From assembly GCF_003258595.1 (NCBI RefSeq), contig NZ_QHHQ01000001.1:868001-932000 (forward strand): a stretch of 64,000 bases of DNA. Reading direction: 5' to 3'. The DNA comes from Acuticoccus sediminis (GTDB lineage: Bacteria; Pseudomonadota; Alphaproteobacteria; Rhizobiales; Amorphaceae). The notes below the pieces were generated by a model. It did no database searches. It had not been told where the DNA came from and worked only from the letters and a program-made list of their open reading frames with translations. Below are positions 15,653-28,021 of this stretch, piece after piece. The position numbers and the translations under genes are program-made. Numbering within the stretch: the stretch's first letter is position 1; each line of letters starts with the position of its first letter.

Positions 15653-16753
15653 ATGGCCTTCAGGATTGGTAGAGGCATTTTCGACTCGCTCGAGGGCTCG
15701 GCCTCCGACGACATCGTGCTGGGCCTCGGCGGCGACGACATCGTCATCGGCGGCTTTGGCTCCGACTGGCTCGACGGCGGGGACGGGGACGACATCGTCG
15801 TCACCGGCGCGATCGTTTCCGGCTCGCTCCTCGGCGGCGCGGTGTTCGAGGACACCGACAACGACGTGGCCTTCGGCGGCGCCGGCGACGACGTGATCAT
15901 CTCGGTCGGCGGGGCCGACTACATAGACGCGGGCGAGGGCGGCGAGACGGACGGCGACCTCGTCGCCGTCAACCGGTCCGGGAACACCGCCGCGCTTCGG
16001 GCGTTCGGCATCGACAGCGCGCTCGCCCCGTCTCCGACTCCGGTGTTCGAGGGCCAGTTCGTCGTGCTGAACGACGGGACGGCGGTCACCAACGCGGAGC
16101 ATCTGCGGCTGCGCGGGACGACGATGTCCGACACCATTCTCCTCGCCAACATGACGAGCCTCGAGGAGACCGAGATCTTCGCCAACGGCGGAAACGATGT
16201 CGTCACCACGGGCGACAGCGTCGACTCGCTCTACGGCGAGGGCGGAGACGACCTCCTCTCCGCCGGAGCGGGCGCCGACAGCGTCGAGGGCGGGACGGGG
16301 AACGACACGATCCTCGCCGGGGCGGGCGGCGACTACGCCCTCGGCGGCGCGGGCAACGACCTCATCATGGGCGGCGACGGCGACGATGCCATCTACGGCA
16401 ACGCGGGCGACGACACCGTGATCGGCGGCGCCGGCAACGATACCCTCGGCGGCGCCGAGCCGTACGCCGGGACCCGGGCGTTCGACACCGACACATATGT
16501 CGGCGGCGAGGGAGCGGACCTCTTCTCCCTCATGTTCGGCGCCATCAACGAGGACGTCATCGCCGACTTCGACCGCCGCGAGGGCGACAGCATCGAGATC
16601 GGCTTCAACATCGACATCGGCCGGGACGACGTCGAGATCGAGCTGGTCGACCGGCGCGCGGGCACCTTCAACGTCACCGTCGAGGGGGAGGGGACGCACA
16701 CCTTCACCGCCGTCGGCGCCCTCGTCTCCGACGTGGCGCTCCTCGTCTTCTGA
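15653..16753 (+). CDS. RTX (hemolysin-type) calcium-binding repeat protein
   Basis: 366 residues. Two blocks of nonapeptide GGxGxDxxx repeats are visible, one near residues 20-95 (LGLGGDDIVIGGFGSDWLDG) and one near 180-270 (GGAGNDLIMGGDGDDAIYGN). Between them lies a non-repeat segment of about 85 residues (VLNDGTAVTNAEHLRLRG). There is no N-terminal signal peptide, as expected for type I secretion with a C-terminal signal. The C-terminal segment (IADFDRREGDSIEIGF, ending ALLVF) resembles such tails. No transporter genes are adjacent. Role could be a surface or secreted calcium-binding protein; no enzyme domain is seen. Confidence 0.85.
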   Translation: MAFRIGRGIFDSLEGSASDDIVLGLGGDDIVIGGFGSDWLDGGDGDDIVVTGAIVSGSLLGGAVFEDTDNDVAFGGAGDDVIISVGGADYIDAGEGGETDGDLVAVNRSGNTAALRAFGIDSALAPSPTPVFEGQFVVLNDGTAVTNAEHLRLRGTTMSDTILLANMTSLEETEIFANGGNDVVTTGDSVDSLYGEGGDDLLSAGAGADSVEGGTGNDTILAGAGGDYALGGAGNDLIMGGDGDDAIYGNAGDDTVIGGAGNDTLGGAEPYAGTRAFDTDTYVGGEGADLFSLMFGAINEDVIADFDRREGDSIEIGFNIDIGRDDVEIELVDRRAGTFNVTVEGEGTHTFTAVGALVSDVALLVF

Positions 16754-18377: not shown

Positions 18378-18848
18378 TCAGCCGAAGAGGCGGGAGAAGA
18401 AGCCCCTCTTAGGCACCGCCACCACCACCGCCTCGGCCTCAGCCTTGTGCGCGGCGTTCTTCATGACGGTGGAGACGAGGACGTAGGTCTCGGTCCACGC
18501 GTCCTTCAGCTCCGCCGTCCAGGCGTCGCCGAGACCCTTCTCGAGCGTGTAGAGGAGCGCGGCGCCGACGGCGTCGTAGTGCTCGTCCCTGACGCCGTAG
18601 GCGACGTGCTTGACGCCGAGCGCCTCGACCACGGGGACGATCGTGTCCACCTGGTGGAGGTTCGACACCGCGACGCCGAGGGTCTTCATCAGCTTCTTCT
18701 TCTGCTCCGCCATCTCGGCCGGAAACAGCGACGTCAGCTCGGGGTTCTGCTCGAACAGCCGTCCATAGAAGATGTCGGCGGCCGTCTCGGCGATCGGCGC
18801 GACCTTCTTGAAGCTCTCCTGGACCAGCGCAACTTTCTCGGGGGTCAT
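18378..18848 (-). CDS. Single-domain globin
   Basis: 156 residues. Three-over-three haem globin related to Vitreoscilla-type haemoglobin and flavohaemoglobin haem domains. LVQESFKKVAPIAETAADIFYGRLFEQNPELTSLF is the usual A-to-CD helix run (shown here in two pieces: LVQESFKKVAP and IFYGRLFEQNPEL), and VKHVAYGVRDEHYDAVGAAL holds the proximal histidine region. There is no reductase domain. ATG 18848 is preferred over the TTG at 18863 because GAAGGA lies just upstream. Last gene of a minus-strand set with a DUF3365 cytochrome, a multihaem cytochrome and a flavoprotein. Likely NO or oxygen chemistry; inferred. Confidence 0.88.
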   Translation of the reverse strand: MTPEKVALVQESFKKVAPIAETAADIFYGRLFEQNPELTSLFPAEMAEQKKKLMKTLGVAVSNLHQVDTIVPVVEALGVKHVAYGVRDEHYDAVGAALLYTLEKGLGDAWTAELKDAWTETYVLVSTVMKNAAHKAEAEAVVVAVPKRGFFSRLFG

Positions 18849-18910
18849 CCTAAAATCCTTCAATCAGAGAGGGGAGATGGACGGGCGGTGCGGTCCGCCC
18901 GCCCCCGACG

Positions 18911-19486
18911 TCAGCCGTCGATGGGAATGCGGATCACGACACCGCCCATCGTGTCGCCGAGCTCGAAATCGGTGCGCGGGGAGTCCTTGTGCGCGTTGTG
19001 GCAGGAGACGCAGGCCGGCGCGACGGCGACATCCGCGTAGACGGCGGTGAGGTAAGTCTGATCGCCGAGGGTTTCCTCAGCGTAGAATGGCTCGTCCGGG
19101 TCGTCCGCGACCGCCTGGAGCCCTTCCTTCTCCACCTCGGTGGTCGCGCCGTTCTGCTTGTTGACCGGCCACAGTGAGAGAAGCGAGTAGAAGAACTTGT
19201 CCGTCTTGTCGGCGACCAGCTCGGAGCCGAAGCGGAACATCTGCGCGGGCAGCGGCAGTGCCTTGTCGTCGTGGAAGAATTCCGACGCCTTGATCACGCC
19301 TTCTTCGTTGGCGAGCCGATTGACCACCATCTTCGTGTAGACGGTCCGGTCCGACTCCATGACCGCATGGAGCATATCGGCCACATCCTTGGCGTCGATA
19401 CTCTGGGCGACGATCGCCGTGGGCATTGCGATGCCCGCCGCGACGAGACCCGCCGCGGCCATGACCTTGAAGCGCTTTATTCCCAT
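18911..19486 (-). CDS. DUF3365 (Tll0287-like) monohaem c-type protein
   Basis: 191 residues. Signal peptide (KVMAAAGLVAAGIAMPTAIVAQ), then a PAS-like DUF3365 region (MVVNRLANEEGVIKASEFFH, FRFGSELVADKTDKFFYS) and a C-terminal haem c motif CVSCH near residue 168. Members of this family are periplasmic haem sensors or electron carriers. ATG 19486 follows AGAGGATC; a longer frame to 19633 is Arg-rich and unlikely. It sits 64 bases after the multihaem cytochrome and 62 bases before the globin, probably in one operon. Confidence 0.85.
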   Translation of the reverse strand: MGIKRFKVMAAAGLVAAGIAMPTAIVAQSIDAKDVADMLHAVMESDRTVYTKMVVNRLANEEGVIKASEFFHDDKALPLPAQMFRFGSELVADKTDKFFYSLLSLWPVNKQNGATTEVEKEGLQAVADDPDEPFYAEETLGDQTYLTAVYADVAVAPACVSCHNAHKDSPRTDFELGDTMGGVVIRIPIDG

Positions 19487-19550
19487 GATAGATCCTCTTT
19501 CGCGTTGCCGTTCGTGCAATGGCGGCACGGGGGGAGGAGAGCGAGGCCCA

Positions 19551-21092
19551 TCACTTGCCTCCCTCCGTGCGACTTCTCGCCCAGTCGATGCTCGGCACAT
19601 GGGCCGAGGGGCGCCCGTTGAAGTTCCTCTCAACGAGTTCGGGATCCGCCAGGGCGTCGATCGCGAACGACAGCCCGTGGCAGTTGAGACAGACCGGCCG
19701 GATCATCTTCTCGTTCGGCCGCAGCGTGGCGTTCTGGTTGTGCGTGACGAAGAAGCGGCCGCGGCGCAGCTCGATCTTCGGCATGTGGCAGTCGCCGCAG
19801 GTCACCCCGGTTCCGGCGGGCGCGGTGCCGTCGCGCTCGGCCTCCCAGAGGCGGAAGTGGGGCGAGGTGAAGTAGGCGCGGGTGTGCGGATCGTCGTGGC
19901 AGGAGGCGCAGGCCTCGACCGCGGCGGTGGCGAGATCCGGCTGATGCGGCGCATGGCACTGCCCGCAGGTCCCGACCGACTCGCCGTGCGCGTCCGGCTT
20001 CATCGGGATGCGCGCCTTGTCGACCGTCATCGCCGTCAGCGGGACGTCGCGGAACGGCGCGGTGAGGGCGGCGAGGACGGCGTTCTCCGGCGCCTTGCGC
20101 GGTTCGGGGAGCGCGGGGTGGAAGCGCATCGCGTGCCGGCCCTCACGGAAGGTGTCGGTCTCGCGCTTGTGGCAGTCGCGGCAGGTCTCCATGCCGGGCG
20201 ACGGGGTCCACGCCGCGGCGAGGGCGGCGCGGTCCGCCGGGTCCGCCTCGGGGGCGTGGCAGCCGCCGCAATTCACGCCGCTCGTCGCGTGCTTCGAGGC
20301 CGCCCACGCCGCGACGACGCCGGGTGTCGCGAGGCCGTCCGGTGCCACCGCGTCCCCGGCGCGCAGGATCTCGGCGAGCGCGGTCCGGGCGTCCTCCCCG
20401 GCCTCGTCCGGCGCCGTGCCGGCGTTCTCGAGGTAGGCCTTGAGGCTCGCCACCGGGTCGTCCGACAGGATCGCGGTGAGGCGCGGGTGGCTCCGCGCCG
20501 CGGCGGAGAAGGGCTGGACGGGATCGGCGGCGAAGTCGGGCTCCGCCGCGTGGCGCAGCAGGAAGTCCTCGTAGAGCGCGGTGTTGTCGTGGAAATTGTG
20601 GCAACCGGCGCTGGCGCAGGTCTCGAAGCCGTAGCCCTTGTGGGTCGGGCGGTTCTCGTAGACGTCCTGATGGCAGGCCATGCAGTAGTCCATCGGGAGC
20701 GTCACGGCGCCGACGCGGGTCTCTTCCGGGACATGCTCGGCGTGGCAGGTGATGCAGTACAGCGCGTCGAGTTCGGCGCGGCGGGCGACGTTGCGCGGGT
20801 CGCGGAACTTCTTGACCGGGTGCGAGTCGTCGGCCTCCTTCAGCTCCTCCTCGTGGCAGGTGAGGCAGGCCTTGTTCATGTCCTTCCGGACCGTCACGCG
20901 GTCGGCGAAGAAGCCGGAGGTGTGGCACGCCTCGCAGGCCACCTCGATCTGGTGGTGCGCCCCGGTGGTGCGGCCGATCAGGAAGATGTCACGCGCCCCG
21001 CCGACGTAGGCGATGGAGGCGAGCGCGCCGCCGGCGGCCAGTGTGAGGCCGACCCAGAGGCACCAGAGGAGGGCATTTCGGCTCATCCTCAT
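19551..21092 (-). CDS. Membrane-anchored multihaem cytochrome c (11 haem motifs)
   Basis: 513 residues. One N-terminal hydrophobic segment (residues about 9-30) would export and anchor it at the periplasmic face. Ten CxxCH motifs start at residues 53, 76, 113, 137, 275, 304, 376, 395, 432 and 468, and an unusual CX4CH (CASAGCH) is at 159-165. Haems 1-5 and 6-11 are separated by a haem-free segment of about 110 residues (166-274), so it may be two modules. Motifs alone do not settle the enzyme class; it could be a nitrite or hydroxylamine-type reductase or an electron conduit. It follows the flavocytochrome b gene by four bases. Confidence 0.88.
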   Translation of the reverse strand: MRMSRNALLWCLWVGLTLAAGGALASIAYVGGARDIFLIGRTTGAHHQIEVACEACHTSGFFADRVTVRKDMNKACLTCHEEELKEADDSHPVKKFRDPRNVARRAELDALYCITCHAEHVPEETRVGAVTLPMDYCMACHQDVYENRPTHKGYGFETCASAGCHNFHDNTALYEDFLLRHAAEPDFAADPVQPFSAAARSHPRLTAILSDDPVASLKAYLENAGTAPDEAGEDARTALAEILRAGDAVAPDGLATPGVVAAWAASKHATSGVNCGGCHAPEADPADRAALAAAWTPSPGMETCRDCHKRETDTFREGRHAMRFHPALPEPRKAPENAVLAALTAPFRDVPLTAMTVDKARIPMKPDAHGESVGTCGQCHAPHQPDLATAAVEACASCHDDPHTRAYFTSPHFRLWEAERDGTAPAGTGVTCGDCHMPKIELRRGRFFVTHNQNATLRPNEKMIRPVCLNCHGLSFAIDALADPELVERNFNGRPSAHVPSIDWARSRTEGGK

Positions 21093-21096
21093 CGCA

Positions 21097-23091
21097 TCAC
21101 CACGTGTAGACGCTGAGGATGTGGAATAGGATCAGCGCCGGGAGCGGCCACAGCGCCAGGATGTGGATCCAGAGCGGCAGCGCACGGGGCCTGGCGTGGG
21201 GGCCGATGAGTTCGGCCTCGCGCATCTTGTGCTCGCCGCCGGTGATGAAGCCGGAGACCGCGCCGGCCGCCAGCATGACGACGAAGCCCGCCATCAGCAC
21301 GAGGTTGAGGTTGGTGCCGAGCCGCAGTCCGGTGTGCGCCACGGCGACGAGGGCGGCGAGGAGGCCGAGCGCGATGTGCACCAGCCGCCAGGCCTGATAA
21401 CCGCCGAACCGCCGGAACCAGCCGATCCGCTTGCGCAGGCCGAGGACGGCGGCGGCGACCGTGATCCCGAGGAGCGTGTAGCCGGTCCACTGCTTGACGA
21501 TCGAGTCGAACCAGAGCGTCCGCAGCATCCGCCCGTCGAAGTAGGTGTCCGGGACGGGGACGTTCGGGATCAGCAGGATCGCCAGCGAGGCGTGGGTGGC
21601 GAGGATCGAGAAGGCGAGGACGAAGGGCCACCACTTGACCGGCTGGGGTCTCGCGGCGGCGCCGAGGAGGTCGAGGACCAGCGGCTGGCAGGTGCCGCAG
21701 ACGGTGTTGGCGCCGGTGGCGGCGCGGACGTCCGCGAGGGTCGTGGCGCCCCGGGCGACGGCGGAGCCGATGGCGCCCTTGGTGACGCCGGTGCAGTTGC
21801 AGACGATGGCGCTGGCCGGCAGGGCAGCGGCGCCCTCCGCCGTGGCGCGCCAGAGGGTGCCGGTGCGGCGCAGGCGCCAGAGGGCGAGCGGGGAGACGCG
21901 GGCCCGTCCGGCGACGGCGCGCTGCAGGCGGCTCGCCTCCGGCCAGGCGCCGACGCCGAGGGCCGCGACCAGTTTGCCGCGCTCGAGGAAGAGGCGGCGG
22001 TAGATGCCGTTCTGCGGATCGGTGAAGACGACGCTCCTGACGCCCGGGGCCTGGGCGGCGGACTCGAAGTCGCCCATGGAGAAGACGTCGGCGCCGAGGA
22101 CCTTGAGCTTGGTGGCCGGGACGGAGCCCTTGTAGGCGACCGGGGTGCCGGCGATGCTGGCGGCCGCGGTCACCGCGTGCTCGAAACCGGGGCCGACGAG
22201 GCCGTAGACGACGCCGCGGTGCTCGGCGCATTCGCCGACCGCGTAGATCGACGGGTCGGAGGTGCGCATCTCGTCGTCGACGATGACGGCGCGGCCGAAT
22301 GCGAGGCCGACCGCGGCGGGGAGCTGGATGTTGGCGCGCACGCCGGTGCAGACGACGACGGTGTCGGCGATGAGGCTCGCCCCGCTGGCGAGGGTGACGG
22401 AGACGACGCGGGAGAAGCCGTCGATGGAGGCGATGCGCTCGCCGGTGCGCACGGTGACGCCGAGCGCCTCGATGCGGGCGGCGAGCGTCCGGCCCGCGGC
22501 CTCGTCGAGCTGGCGGGGCATGAGGCGGTTCTCGTGTTCGACGATGGTGACCCGGGCGCCGCGACGGGCCATGCCGCGGGCCGCCTCGAGGCCGAGGAGG
22601 CCGCCGCCGATGACGACGACGTGGCGGGCCGACATGGTCCGGGCGACGAGGCGCTCCGCGTCGTCGAAGTTGCGGAAGGCGTAGACGCCGGGGAGGTCCG
22701 CGCCGGGAATCGCGGGGATGAAGGCGCGGCTTCCGAGGGCGAGGACGAGGCGGTGGTAGGCGACGACGTCGCCGCGCGAGGTGACGACGTGGCGCTTCTC
22801 GCGGTCGATGTCGACGACGGAGGTGCCGTCGTGGCAGGCGACGCGACCGGGCGGGGGGAAACGGTCGTCGAGGTAGACGGTGCCGACCTGGGCCTCGCCG
22901 GCGAGCAGCGGGGTCAGCTTGACGCGGTTGTAGGGGCGCCAGCGTTCGGCGTTGAAGAGGACGACGTCCCAGCCGCGGCGGGACAGCTCCTGCGCGGTGC
23001 GCACGCCGACCGGCCCGCCGCCGACGATGACGACGGGGGCGGTAGCGTTCTCCGGCGCGTTCAGGCTGTCCGAGCGGACTGCGACGTTCAT
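21097..23091 (-). CDS. NirB-like FAD/NAD(P)H oxidoreductase fused to BFD [2Fe-2S] and membrane cytochrome b parts
   Basis: 664 residues. Residues 20-400 form a pyridine-nucleotide disulfide reductase fold like the front of NirB: FAD motif VIVGGGPVGVRTA at about 21-33, second dinucleotide motif VVVIGGGLLGLEA at 158-170, and the YAVGECAEHRG block near 283. Residues 428-478 are a BFD-like [2Fe-2S] domain with Cys431, Cys433, Cys465 and Cys468. From 488 five hydrophobic helices follow, with His500, His572, His586, His643 and His657 placed as possible haem b ligands. There is no sulfite/nitrite reductase haemoprotein domain. It could carry electrons from NAD(P)H across the membrane to the downstream multihaem cytochrome; that path is inference. 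Confidence 0.85.
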   Translation of the reverse strand: MNVAVRSDSLNAPENATAPVVIVGGGPVGVRTAQELSRRGWDVVLFNAERWRPYNRVKLTPLLAGEAQVGTVYLDDRFPPPGRVACHDGTSVVDIDREKRHVVTSRGDVVAYHRLVLALGSRAFIPAIPGADLPGVYAFRNFDDAERLVARTMSARHVVVIGGGLLGLEAARGMARRGARVTIVEHENRLMPRQLDEAAGRTLAARIEALGVTVRTGERIASIDGFSRVVSVTLASGASLIADTVVVCTGVRANIQLPAAVGLAFGRAVIVDDEMRTSDPSIYAVGECAEHRGVVYGLVGPGFEHAVTAAASIAGTPVAYKGSVPATKLKVLGADVFSMGDFESAAQAPGVRSVVFTDPQNGIYRRLFLERGKLVAALGVGAWPEASRLQRAVAGRARVSPLALWRLRRTGTLWRATAEGAAALPASAIVCNCTGVTKGAIGSAVARGATTLADVRAATGANTVCGTCQPLVLDLLGAAARPQPVKWWPFVLAFSILATHASLAILLIPNVPVPDTYFDGRMLRTLWFDSIVKQWTGYTLLGITVAAAVLGLRKRIGWFRRFGGYQAWRLVHIALGLLAALVAVAHTGLRLGTNLNLVLMAGFVVMLAAGAVSGFITGGEHKMREAELIGPHARPRALPLWIHILALWPLPALILFHILSVYTW

Positions 23092-23212
23092 GCGGCGACC
23101 TCGACAAAAGGCAAAAGCTCAGTGTGGCCCGCGCGCGAGCCATCACGGTTTCAGTGCCAGTCGACATCGTTGCCGAACGTGCATCCGCCGTTGGATACAC
23201 GCGTTGGACTTA

Positions 23213-23234
23213 GCAACCCGCGTGCCAAGGTTGC
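23213..23234. promoter_or_regulatory. Inverted repeat upstream of the redox operon
   Basis: GCAACC and GGTTGC flank a 10-base spacer, 122 bases upstream of the flavocytochrome start. The size and spacing suit a dimeric regulator. I looked for an FNR/NnrR-type site (TTGAT-N4-ATCAA) in this 220-base region and did not find one. Confidence 0.35.
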
Positions 23235-26515: not shown

Positions 26516-27412
26516 TCAGCCGCGGTAGACGCAGAAGTGGCGGATGCCGTCGTAGCCGAGGTAGGTCCCGGTGTTCGGGTCGAAGCTGCGGAAGCGGTTG
26601 GTGCAGTAGGCGAACCAGCCGTCGCTCCACGGGGCGTAGTCCTCGACCACGACGACCGTGTTGTTGGAGTAGAGCGGCAGGGTCGCGGCGGCGAGCACGC
26701 CGAACGCGGGCGCCCAGAACCAGGCGCTGTTGTTCCAGTAGTACCAGCCGTCGTACGCGGGCCGCCAGTAGTAGCCGCGATAGTATCGCCTGTCGCCGTT
26801 CCAGCGGGGGTAGCCGTCGTACCAGCGGCCGTGGCGGTAGTAGCGCCGGGCGCCGTTGTGGGCGTAGCGCGATCCGGGACCGCGGTTCACGTGGCGGGGC
26901 GGGGCGCGGTGGCCGCGGTAGGCGTTGCGGGTGGCGTACTGCCGGCCGGTGTTGACGCGGCGCCCGCTGGCGGTCCGGCCCCGGTAGGTCTGGCCGCGGT
27001 AGGCCTGGCGGCTGGTGGCGGTGCGGCCGCGGTAGGCCTGGCCGCGGTAGGCCTGGCGGCCGGCGGTGGTGCGGCCGCGGTAGGTCTGGCCGCGGTAGGC
27101 CTGGCGACCGGCGGTGGTGCGACCGCGGTAGGCCTGTCCGCGGGAGGCCTGGCCGCGGTAGGCGGAGCGTCCGCCGCCGGAGCGTCCGCGGTAGACGGCG
27201 CCGCCGCCCCGGTTGCCGCCGCCGCGGTAGCCTCCGCCGCCGCGATAACCGCCGCCGCCGCTGCGTCCGCGGTTCTGGACGGTGACGATGCCGCTGGGGG
27301 CGGTGCCGATCTGCGACTTGAGGGCGAGGCCCGGCGGTCCGGCGGCGTGGGCCTGGAATGGGGTGGCCATGGCGAACGCGGCCATGACGGCGACTGCGAG
27401 CATCAGTTTCAT
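26516..27412 (-). CDS. BA14K-like exported protein with Tyr-Arg-Gly repeats
   Basis: 298 residues. Signal peptide (MLAVAVMAAFAMATPFQAHA). Residues about 48-145 are Gly/Arg/Tyr rich with tandem units of the type GRQAYRGQTYRGRTT. Residues about 175-225 are Tyr/Trp/Arg rich (RRYYRGYYWRPAYDGWYYW). A hydrophobic stretch (WAPAFGVLAAATLPLY) precedes the C-terminal BA14K-like motif FAYCTNRFRSFDPNTGTYLG and ending DGIRHFC. BA14K proteins are lectin-like immunoreactive proteins of Hyphomicrobiales. ATG 27412 follows GGGAGGA. Likely envelope or surface associated. Confidence 0.82.
   Translation of the reverse strand: MKLMLAVAVMAAFAMATPFQAHAAGPPGLALKSQIGTAPSGIVTVQNRGRSGGGGYRGGGGYRGGGNRGGGAVYRGRSGGGRSAYRGQASRGQAYRGRTTAGRQAYRGQTYRGRTTAGRQAYRGQAYRGRTATSRQAYRGQTYRGRTASGRRVNTGRQYATRNAYRGHRAPPRHVNRGPGSRYAHNGARRYYRHGRWYDGYPRWNGDRRYYRGYYWRPAYDGWYYWNNSAWFWAPAFGVLAAATLPLYSNNTVVVVEDYAPWSDGWFAYCTNRFRSFDPNTGTYLGYDGIRHFCVYRG
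26978..27121 (-). repeat. Three tandem 48-bp units inside the BA14K-like gene
   Basis: The units encode 16 residues each (RTTAGRQAYRGQTYRG and two close variants, residues 98-145). Partial copies flank the array (GQASRGQAYRG before, RTASGRR after). Copy number probably varies between strains. Confidence 0.75.
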
Positions 27413-28021
27413 CCCGTCCTCCCTCGGCGGTGTGCGGGCTGACGCGGCGCGAGATGGATCGCAGGCCGGAACTCGCACGACTGAGCGGTAATTTGCTCAA
27501 TTTCCAGCTGAACGGGGTGTGAACGGAGGATTTTTTGTGGCGCGGCCGCGGCGCGCCGGGAGGCGGCGGCGCGGGGTCGCCGGAAGTGGGGCCGTCGGAG
27601 GTGGGCGGCCGTCGGAGGTGGGGGCGTGCGGAGGCGATCCCTCGGAAGGGTTGGGGAGGGGCCGGGCGCGCGGGAAACGGCGCTATGGTGTAGGTGAGCC
27701 GCTCGCCGCGCGCCCGCCGTCCGGCTTTGAGGGCGGGTGGGGCTTTCGGCCCGCGGCATCCTCGGATGCGCGCGGTACGGGGACGCCGGTTCGCGGGTCC
27801 CGGCGGAGCGGTGTGGCGGGCGTGGGCCCCCTCACGTCACGCGGGCGTCATGGCGAACGGCGCCGTCCGTCCCAACCGTCCTGCCGGCGGGTTCGGGTGC
27901 GTTACGCCCTCTCCCGGCCGGCGGCCGAAACACGCGCTCCCTGTCGGCCGGTCCGGACAGGCCTCCCCGGTGACGCGTGTGGGGGGATGGTACGCGGGGT
28001 GAGTGGGGCGGGGATAAGGTT
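27413..28021. other. GC-rich intergenic region
   Basis: 609 bases with no supported gene. The first 120 bases contain an AT-richer patch (27480-27540) that may hold the promoter of the BA14K-like gene. A 15-base direct repeat GCCGTCGGAGGTGGG is at 27591-27605 and 27608-27622. Open frames in the rest lack recognisable composition. Confidence 0.45.

Follow-up and report, generated by a model that had tools for sequence, protein, structure and literature searches.

In this study, we analysed a stretch of 64,000 nucleotides from Acuticoccus sediminis (contig NZ_QHHQ01000001.1, positions 868,001 to 932,000; hereafter the window), which carries an operon of four minus-strand genes, P0001 to P0004, at positions 18378-23091. 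The operon is almost certainly controlled by NasT and nitrate, and its nitrate link is strong. For its function, we give an even chance to the reading that it is a member of the NasT regulon encoding an NAD(P)H-driven transmembrane redox system which removes nitric oxide (NO), possibly nitrite, stemming from nitrate/nitrite assimilation. The observations behind this are the gene set and its conservation, a NasT-type leader, the co-occurrence with NasT, the linkage to nitrate-assimilation (nas) genes in five relatives, and a globin pocket resembling that of NO dioxygenases. The genes, with intergenic gaps of 4, 64 and 62 bases, are the following:

21097 to 23091, minus strand: P0001, 664 aa, NirB/Flp-type flavin adenine dinucleotide (FAD)-NAD(P)H reductase with Rubredoxin_C and BFD [2Fe-2S] segments, fused to a cytochrome b
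19551 to 21092, minus strand: P0002, 513 aa, 11-haem cytochrome c with an N-terminal membrane helix
18911 to 19486, minus strand: P0003, 191 aa, mono-haem sCache_heme protein (DUF3365/Tll0287-like) without axial Cys
18378 to 18848 (from its ATG), minus strand: P0004, 156 aa, single-domain globin with Hmp-like distal pocket and a basic-aromatic C-terminal tail

The initial annotation of the stretch had described four minus-strand genes with these gaps, which open reading frames (ORFs) and translations bear out, and had named their products as a fused flavo-[2Fe-2S]-cytochrome b protein, an 11-haem cytochrome, a DUF3365 protein and a globin, in agreement with Pfam matches, haem-motif counts and His pairs.

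Relatives of the operon were collected by scanning the named genomes with a profile made from a P0002 alignment. Of the 467 relatives obtained, the best 80 were kept as locus sample, so that all frequencies given for it apply to close relatives only. These loci comprise 44 of type A, having the FAD/[2Fe-2S]-cytochrome b fusion, 33 of type B, having a GPP34 domain and a cytochrome b, and three of neither type (L099, L109, L116). The families of P0002 and P0003 across the loci are called the P2 and P3 families and are distinct from the leader hairpins P1 and P2 described below. The order was surveyed in 397 genomes, and NasT was counted in a class sample of 190 genomes, including that of A. sediminis itself (7.76 Mb). 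The closest named relative here is Acuticoccus yangtzensis (L045), whose P0002 counterpart is 72% identical.

P0001 found matches at E ≤ 1e-60 in 219 of the 397 order genomes; its C-terminal end was reached in 10 of them (E below 1e-190), and the other matches listed end by residue 486. In all ten genomes with the full-length fusion (loci L035-L044) the four are immediate neighbours and their order is unchanged, so the co-occurrence check proposed with the initial annotation showed linked, not unlinked, genes. The flanks of the operon vary between genera; L038-L040, all from one genus, have downstream neighbours in common, and the ten cases are therefore not ten independent ones. Plasmid-borne copies were not found at E ≤ 1e-20. 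In type A, the matched elements lie on a single strand in 44/44 loci, the FAD head and the cytochrome b share one open frame in 42/44 (L079 is split and L122 starts at a contig end), P3 is present in 44/44, and the globin in 40/44, or in 39 of the 42 loci with at least 2 kb downstream. The FAD head at L079:938-2886 reads as two pieces with a seemingly broken frame, possibly an assembly error. An extra mono-haem class I cytochrome occurs in 23 of the 44 type A loci, mostly between P3 and globin and mostly in roseobacter loci (L046:11208-11669, L051, L059 and 20 further ones).

Upstream of P0001, three elements were detected in the leader region:

23211 to 23228, minus strand: sigma-54-type -24/-12 promoter, 136 nt before the P0001 ATG
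23179 to 23200, minus strand: leader hairpin P1, hexaloop AACGGC, C:G closing pair (ANTAR/NasT type)
23161 to 23176, minus strand: leader hairpin P2, hexaloop AACGAT, C:G closing pair (ANTAR/NasT type)

The promoter scored 16/16 in our weighting of the upstream scan, a value equalled by 0/200 shuffles. Promoter and both hairpins together match the narK RNA of Rfam (RF03032) at 23161-23226 with 41.3 bits and an E value of 2.7e-6, the gathering score being 43.2. The ANTAR target is described in PMC7496416 as two stem-loops, each with a hexaloop carrying A1 and G4 and a C:G closing pair, and hairpins P1 and P2 fit this two-hairpin target. When 69 nt of the leader are folded, both hairpins form; with 120 nt only P1 is retained and P2 enters another pairing. 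For type A, 41 leaders were scanned, that of the window and those of 40 loci; the remaining four of the 44 loci start too near a contig end. Hairpin pairs within 300 nt upstream were present in 24/41 type A leaders (0.0 expected by shuffles) and in 0/33 type B leaders, and sigma-54-like sites scoring at least 14 in 13/41 and 0/33, respectively. In L046, as needed for attenuation, a strong terminator (z -8.28) coincides in part with the second hairpin, and by reading the same holds for L047 and L041. RF03032 also matches the nas leader of genome G058 with 30.0 bits.

Other candidates for the leader were discarded. FNR/NnrR-type boxes (TTGN8CAA) occurred in 1/22, 1/19 and 2/33 leaders of three groups, against 4.7, 2.9 and 2.8 expected. 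A Guanidine-II (mini-ykkC) riboswitch, suggested by the loops, was absent from the Rfam result and fits less well than the narK RNA/ANTAR assignment. At C2:609535-609594 the own genome has another RF03032 match, which was dropped, as it lies inside a coding gene.

The distribution of NasT agrees with the leader. NasT is encoded in 39/44 type A genomes, in 1/30 type B genomes (the 33 loci come from 30 genomes, some with two or three each), and in 29/190 genomes of the class sample; the copy of A. sediminis lies at C1:1557386. Many type B loci derive from metagenome-assembled genomes of quite other lineages, and part of the NasT contrast may therefore reflect ancestry. Within the ten order genomes an ANTAR gene was found in six; leader hairpin pairs are present in five of those six and in 0/4 without ANTAR gene. 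Genome G220 has an ANTAR gene and no leader hairpin pair by the strict rule.

Gene linkage provides further evidence. Genes for nas functions lie beside or around the operon in 5/44 type A loci (L107, L110, L114, L094, L048) and in 0/33 type B loci. The order is nasT-nasS-operon-nirB-nirD-nasA in L110 and L114, nasT-nasS-operon-nrtABC in L107 and operon-nasT-nasS-nrtABC in L094; in L048, nasTS are divergent and nasT ends about 0.35 kb before the operon. Because of this linkage in type A loci, we raised our assessment of control by NasT from very likely to almost certain. The order loci L035-L044 gave no matches to NasT, NasS, NrtA, NirD or NasA, narK not having been sought. In A. sediminis, a cluster nasT-nasS-nrtABC-nirB-nirD-nasA (genes named by reading) lies about 0.67 Mb from the operon. 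A setting of nitrate, nitrite or NO, in line with the initial proposal, is thus borne out by leader RNA, NasT co-occurrence and nas linkage as independent evidence. Denitrification via NirK was dropped as the usual setting: profile searches for Hmp and NirK covered 37 genomes (the own genome and 36 of the 44 type A genomes), and NirK gave a weak match in 30/37 and a match above the cut-off in 2/37; NirS and Nor were not searched.

A partly described relative of the operon exists in Bradyrhizobium. According to PMC4724949 and PMC6759348, the narK-bjgb-flp-nasC genes encode among others a single-domain haemoglobin (Bjgb) and an NAD(P)H flavoprotein (Flp), which remove NO during nitrate assimilation, and both narK and bjgb are preceded by predicted NasT hairpins; in aerobic assimilation, narK is activated by NasT (PMC4724949). 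The operon of A. sediminis likewise combines a single-domain globin with an NAD(P)H flavoprotein behind NasT-type leader hairpins in a genome that encodes NasT, the comparison being one of gene order, leader and NasT only. Because Bjgb-Flp shares these two functions and the kind of leader, we read the operon as NO disposal of the NasT regulon. The differences concern the layout: in these papers, Flp is described as cytoplasmic, the Bradyrhizobium operon lacks a cytochrome b, a multihaem cytochrome and an sCache protein, and its genes are co-transcribed with narK and nasC, whereas none of the nitrate-assimilation genes sought adjoins the copy in the window. The operon is thus best read as a variant on the Bjgb-Flp theme that would be extended into the periplasm. 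The initial annotation had stated that no described system with this gene set was known to it. We recognised no description of this four-gene set in the openly licensed PMC literature, so that the statement holds for the set as such and has to be qualified by Bjgb-Flp, a relative of other layout.

Assuming NO disposal within the NasT regulon, the following course of electrons can be proposed. NAD(P)H would reduce the FAD and, via this, the [2Fe-2S] cluster of P0001. From the cluster, electrons would keep the cytosolic globin ferrous, which could then turn NO and O2 into nitrate, or slowly reduce NO instead if O2 is lacking. Electrons from the cluster would also travel via a stack of two b haems to the 11-haem cytochrome and on to the sCache protein, at whose open-site haem periplasmic NO might be bound and reduced. 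The parts of this scheme differ in probability. It is probable that electrons flow outwards into the haem chain, and removal of NO in the cytosol by the globin is somewhat favoured. NO as periplasmic substrate is tentative and the weak point of the reading, because the type B loci show the core also away from NasT and globin. The complete picture, a two-sided NO disposal machine straddling the inner membrane and switched on by a nitrate/nitrite RNA antiterminator, must be regarded as speculative, and so must its detailed form, possible but on the doubtful side, in which one head feeds both a globin NO dioxygenase and an sCache haem reducing NO (or nitrite).

The reductase half of P0001 was identified by the Pfam matches Pyr_redox_2 (1.2e-60), Rubredoxin_C (1e-15) and Fer2_BFD (1.3e-13). 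The NirB model TIGR02374 matched with 394 bits at positions 1-469 of 794, the cut-off being 578. P0001 thus shares with NirB the FAD/NAD, Rubredoxin_C-like and BFD [2Fe-2S] segments, but it remains below that cut-off and has a membrane cytochrome b in place of the sirohaem/4Fe-4S half; no sirohaem/4Fe-4S domain appears among the Pfam matches listed (25 of 26). Flavoproteins 42-44% identical to the FAD part of P0001 sit in the nas clusters L151, L153 and L154. The C-terminal part (about residues 480-664) consists of about 185 residues of membrane helices. Pfam gave nothing above cut-off for it, the best match being DUF4405 at E 0.024, and it was recognised as cytochrome b by two His-X13-His pairs, H572/H586 and H643/H657, which show no variation among 45 type A and 33 type B proteins; H621 is conserved in type A (1.00 vs 0.12). 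Its AF2 model (pLDDT 87.8, pTM 0.83) had no match among PDB folds at E ≤ 0.001. The cytosolic NAD(P)H-FAD head, the putative membrane di-haem path and the paired His resemble those of flavocytochromes of the NADPH oxidase/ferric reductase type; the head of P0001 is, in contrast, NirB-type with [2Fe-2S], it would deliver electrons to a multihaem c cytochrome, and no sequence or fold match to these proteins was found. Multihaem conduits can in general work in both directions, and electrons might thus flow inwards from a periplasmic donor via P2 to make NAD(P)H or to reduce the globin. We consider this very improbable, as the step from c haems to NAD+ is usually uphill, the operon encodes no periplasmic dehydrogenase and the regulation suits the use of nitrate and nitrite.

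For P0004, Globin (2.2e-17) was the only Pfam match, and the chain contains no FAD/NAD reductase domain; in the PDB, haemoglobin-like proteins, among them 3wfw and 3s1i, match it best. Compared with E. coli Hmp, the globins of the window and 39 loci retain TyrB10 (40/40), GlnE7 (40/40), HisF8 (39/40) and TyrG5 (39/40). P0004 thus shares these haem-pocket residues with the flavohaemoglobin, but it lacks the fused reductase domain and GluH23, and the reductase of the operon belongs to another flavoprotein family. Hmp itself was above the curated cut-off in 3/37 type A genomes and was not found in the own genome. A basic-aromatic C-terminal tail (KKGFFARMFG and KKPFWKFWA types) is present in 24/40 globins, in the window at 18381-18410, and may serve for docking to the membrane. 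As read by eye, a single-domain globin other than that of the operon lies within 7 kb of nasT in at least 11/37 type A genomes.

P0002 matched multihaem c families of Pfam. It contains 10 CXXCH motifs and one CX4CH, giving 11 haem motifs, as do 78/79 family members (the other has 11 CXXCH), and a membrane helix is predicted at its N-terminus (residues 5-29). Its structural model (pLDDT 77.6, pTM 0.73) gave no match to PDB folds. The 11 His of the motifs are invariant; 11 non-motif His are likewise invariant and two more nearly so, in types A and B. Around several haem motifs, local profile similarity exists to octahaem nitrite reductase (best, E 1.1e-9), NrfA and HAO, from which P0002 differs in its 11 haems, the lack of CXXCK, the N-terminal membrane helix and the missing overall fold match. 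This similarity would suit an 11-haem protein that itself reduces periplasmic nitrite, towards ammonium for assimilation, or hydroxylamine, with the globin mopping up leaked NO. The NasT-type leader and the nas linkage, the position directly before nirB in L110 and L114 and the NirB-like reductase half of P0001 point in the same direction. However, the catalytic CXXCK haem occurs in 0/79 P2 proteins, the similarity is local, distal His could close all haems, and NirBD is already encoded in the own genome as well as beside the operon in L110 and L114, which makes a nitrite or hydroxylamine reductase rather unlikely. Of the initial proposal of a transmembrane route from NAD(P)H to periplasmic haems for nitrite, hydroxylamine or NO, the setting could be kept; the periplasmic end point is not supported by a P0001 without sirohaem half and a P0002 without CXXCK.

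P0003 begins with a signal-like sequence, as read by eye, and matches the Tll0287-like family (DUF3365, PF11845) with E 2.1e-18; its CXXCH is invariant in the aligned family. A search against PDB sequences gave no match, and the structure of Tll0287 has been solved (PMC12889525). After residue 30, 76/76 P3 proteins have no Cys besides those of CXXCH and hence no axial Cys ligand as in sCache_heme proteins of the redox type. In PMC12889525, a membrane-bound sCache_heme protein without axial Cys bound NO tightly and a stand-alone one with Cys did not. P3 shares the PF11845 match, the CXXCH haem and the stand-alone form with sCache_heme/Tll0287 proteins and differs in the missing axial Cys and, in the sample, in its linkage to a cytochrome b and an 11-haem protein; being stand-alone and Cys-free, it therefore stands between the two classes of that paper. 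As the DUF3365 family includes NO sensors when fused to signalling domains, P0003 could also be a periplasmic NO or redox sensor wired via P2 and cytochrome b to the cytoplasm. Such a sensing device is hardly credible: Pfam reveals no signalling domain in P0003, the operon contains no regulator, and 11 haems with an NAD(P)H reductase would exceed the needs of a sensor.

The type B loci show what the operon can do without. Here a GPP34 domain (Pfam E 7.4e-37 in L049) accompanies the cytochrome b in a single called ORF in 31/33 loci; in L084 cytochrome b and GPP34 are separate genes, the second downstream, and in L058 the ORF call starts late. P3 is present in 30/33 and the globin in 0/33 (0/26 of the loci with at least 2.5 kb downstream). 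In a tree of P0002, types A and B are separated by a single change with support 100/100. From this gene content, FAD head and globin appear to have been gained or lost nearly together, cytochrome b, P2 and P3 being the common core. The combination of GPP34 (GOLPH3-like) with cytochrome b and 11-haem cytochrome, seen at L049:7816-8988, L084:11189-11845 and in 31 further type B loci, is an observation in itself, and no description of a GPP34-cytochrome b fusion was recognised in the same openly licensed literature. Some type B genomes hold two or three copies; L049, L055 and L112 share one genome.

That the core is retained in type B without globin, FAD or leader hairpins would fit an operon whose NO removal is confined to a Bjgb-Flp-like cytosolic dioxygenase with a merely membrane-anchored reductase, the haem arm serving as a redox valve or as an outlet for electrons in general. 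Periplasmic acceptors, metals or O2 could then take up surplus reductant, for which the superoxide formation by sCache_heme proteins reported in PMC12889525 may be cited, and the tail found in 24/40 globins may dock the globin to the membrane. The type A unit, in contrast, lies on one strand behind one leader, with FAD head and cytochrome b joined in one frame in 42/44 loci, and we regard this explanation as unlikely.

Several findings weigh against NO disposal by a NasT-regulated two-sided system. Regarding regulation, 17/41 type A leaders have no hairpin pair within 300 nt, the window's own leader shows no clear terminator, 5/44 type A genomes have no NasT, and the strict hairpin rule applied to five nas leaders never returned a pair, finding a single hairpin in four and nothing in the fifth; moreover, narK-bjgb-flp rose instead of falling when nasT was mutated under denitrifying conditions (PMC6759348), in conflict with the aerobic result of PMC4724949. 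Regarding function, the globin is missing from 4/44 type A loci, of which one is close to a contig end, and GluH23 of the proximal triad of Hmp is conserved in 0/40 globins. P0002 has enough non-motif His that every haem may be closed, leaving no catalytic site, and stand-alone sCache_heme proteins were given redox roles, not NO binding, in PMC12889525. Finally, 33 type B loci carry the cytochrome b-P2-P3 core but neither FAD nor globin nor leader hairpins, and NasT is missing from 29/30 of their genomes, so that the core is not necessarily specific to nitrogen.

Nitrite and NO leak from nitrate assimilation, and the majority of the operon genomes examined have no Hmp (34/37) and no NirK (35/37) above the curated cut-off. 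If the NO disposal reading is true, the operon would be the way in which many alphaproteobacteria, roseobacters included, handle this leak, and if also its two-sided form holds, cytochrome b, 11-haem cytochrome and sCache protein would together form a new, modular reductase of the periplasm that other marine bacteria combine with a GPP34 head. Defined gene partners are gained for one group of stand-alone DUF3365/sCache_heme proteins, and the 11-haem cytochrome family, with 467 relatives in one genome collection, becomes testable by the simple inducer nitrate.

Some further features were noted beside the operon. Two genes downstream of it, at 15653-16753 of the window, a 366-aa protein with glycine/aspartate repeats is encoded, which we take to be RTX-like. 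At 26516-27478 a 320-aa ORF of low complexity contains YRGxxxxGR-type repeats. In L036, a glycine riboswitch aptamer (L036:18553-18663, 56.7 bits) lies within the same 20-kb stretch as the operon copy.

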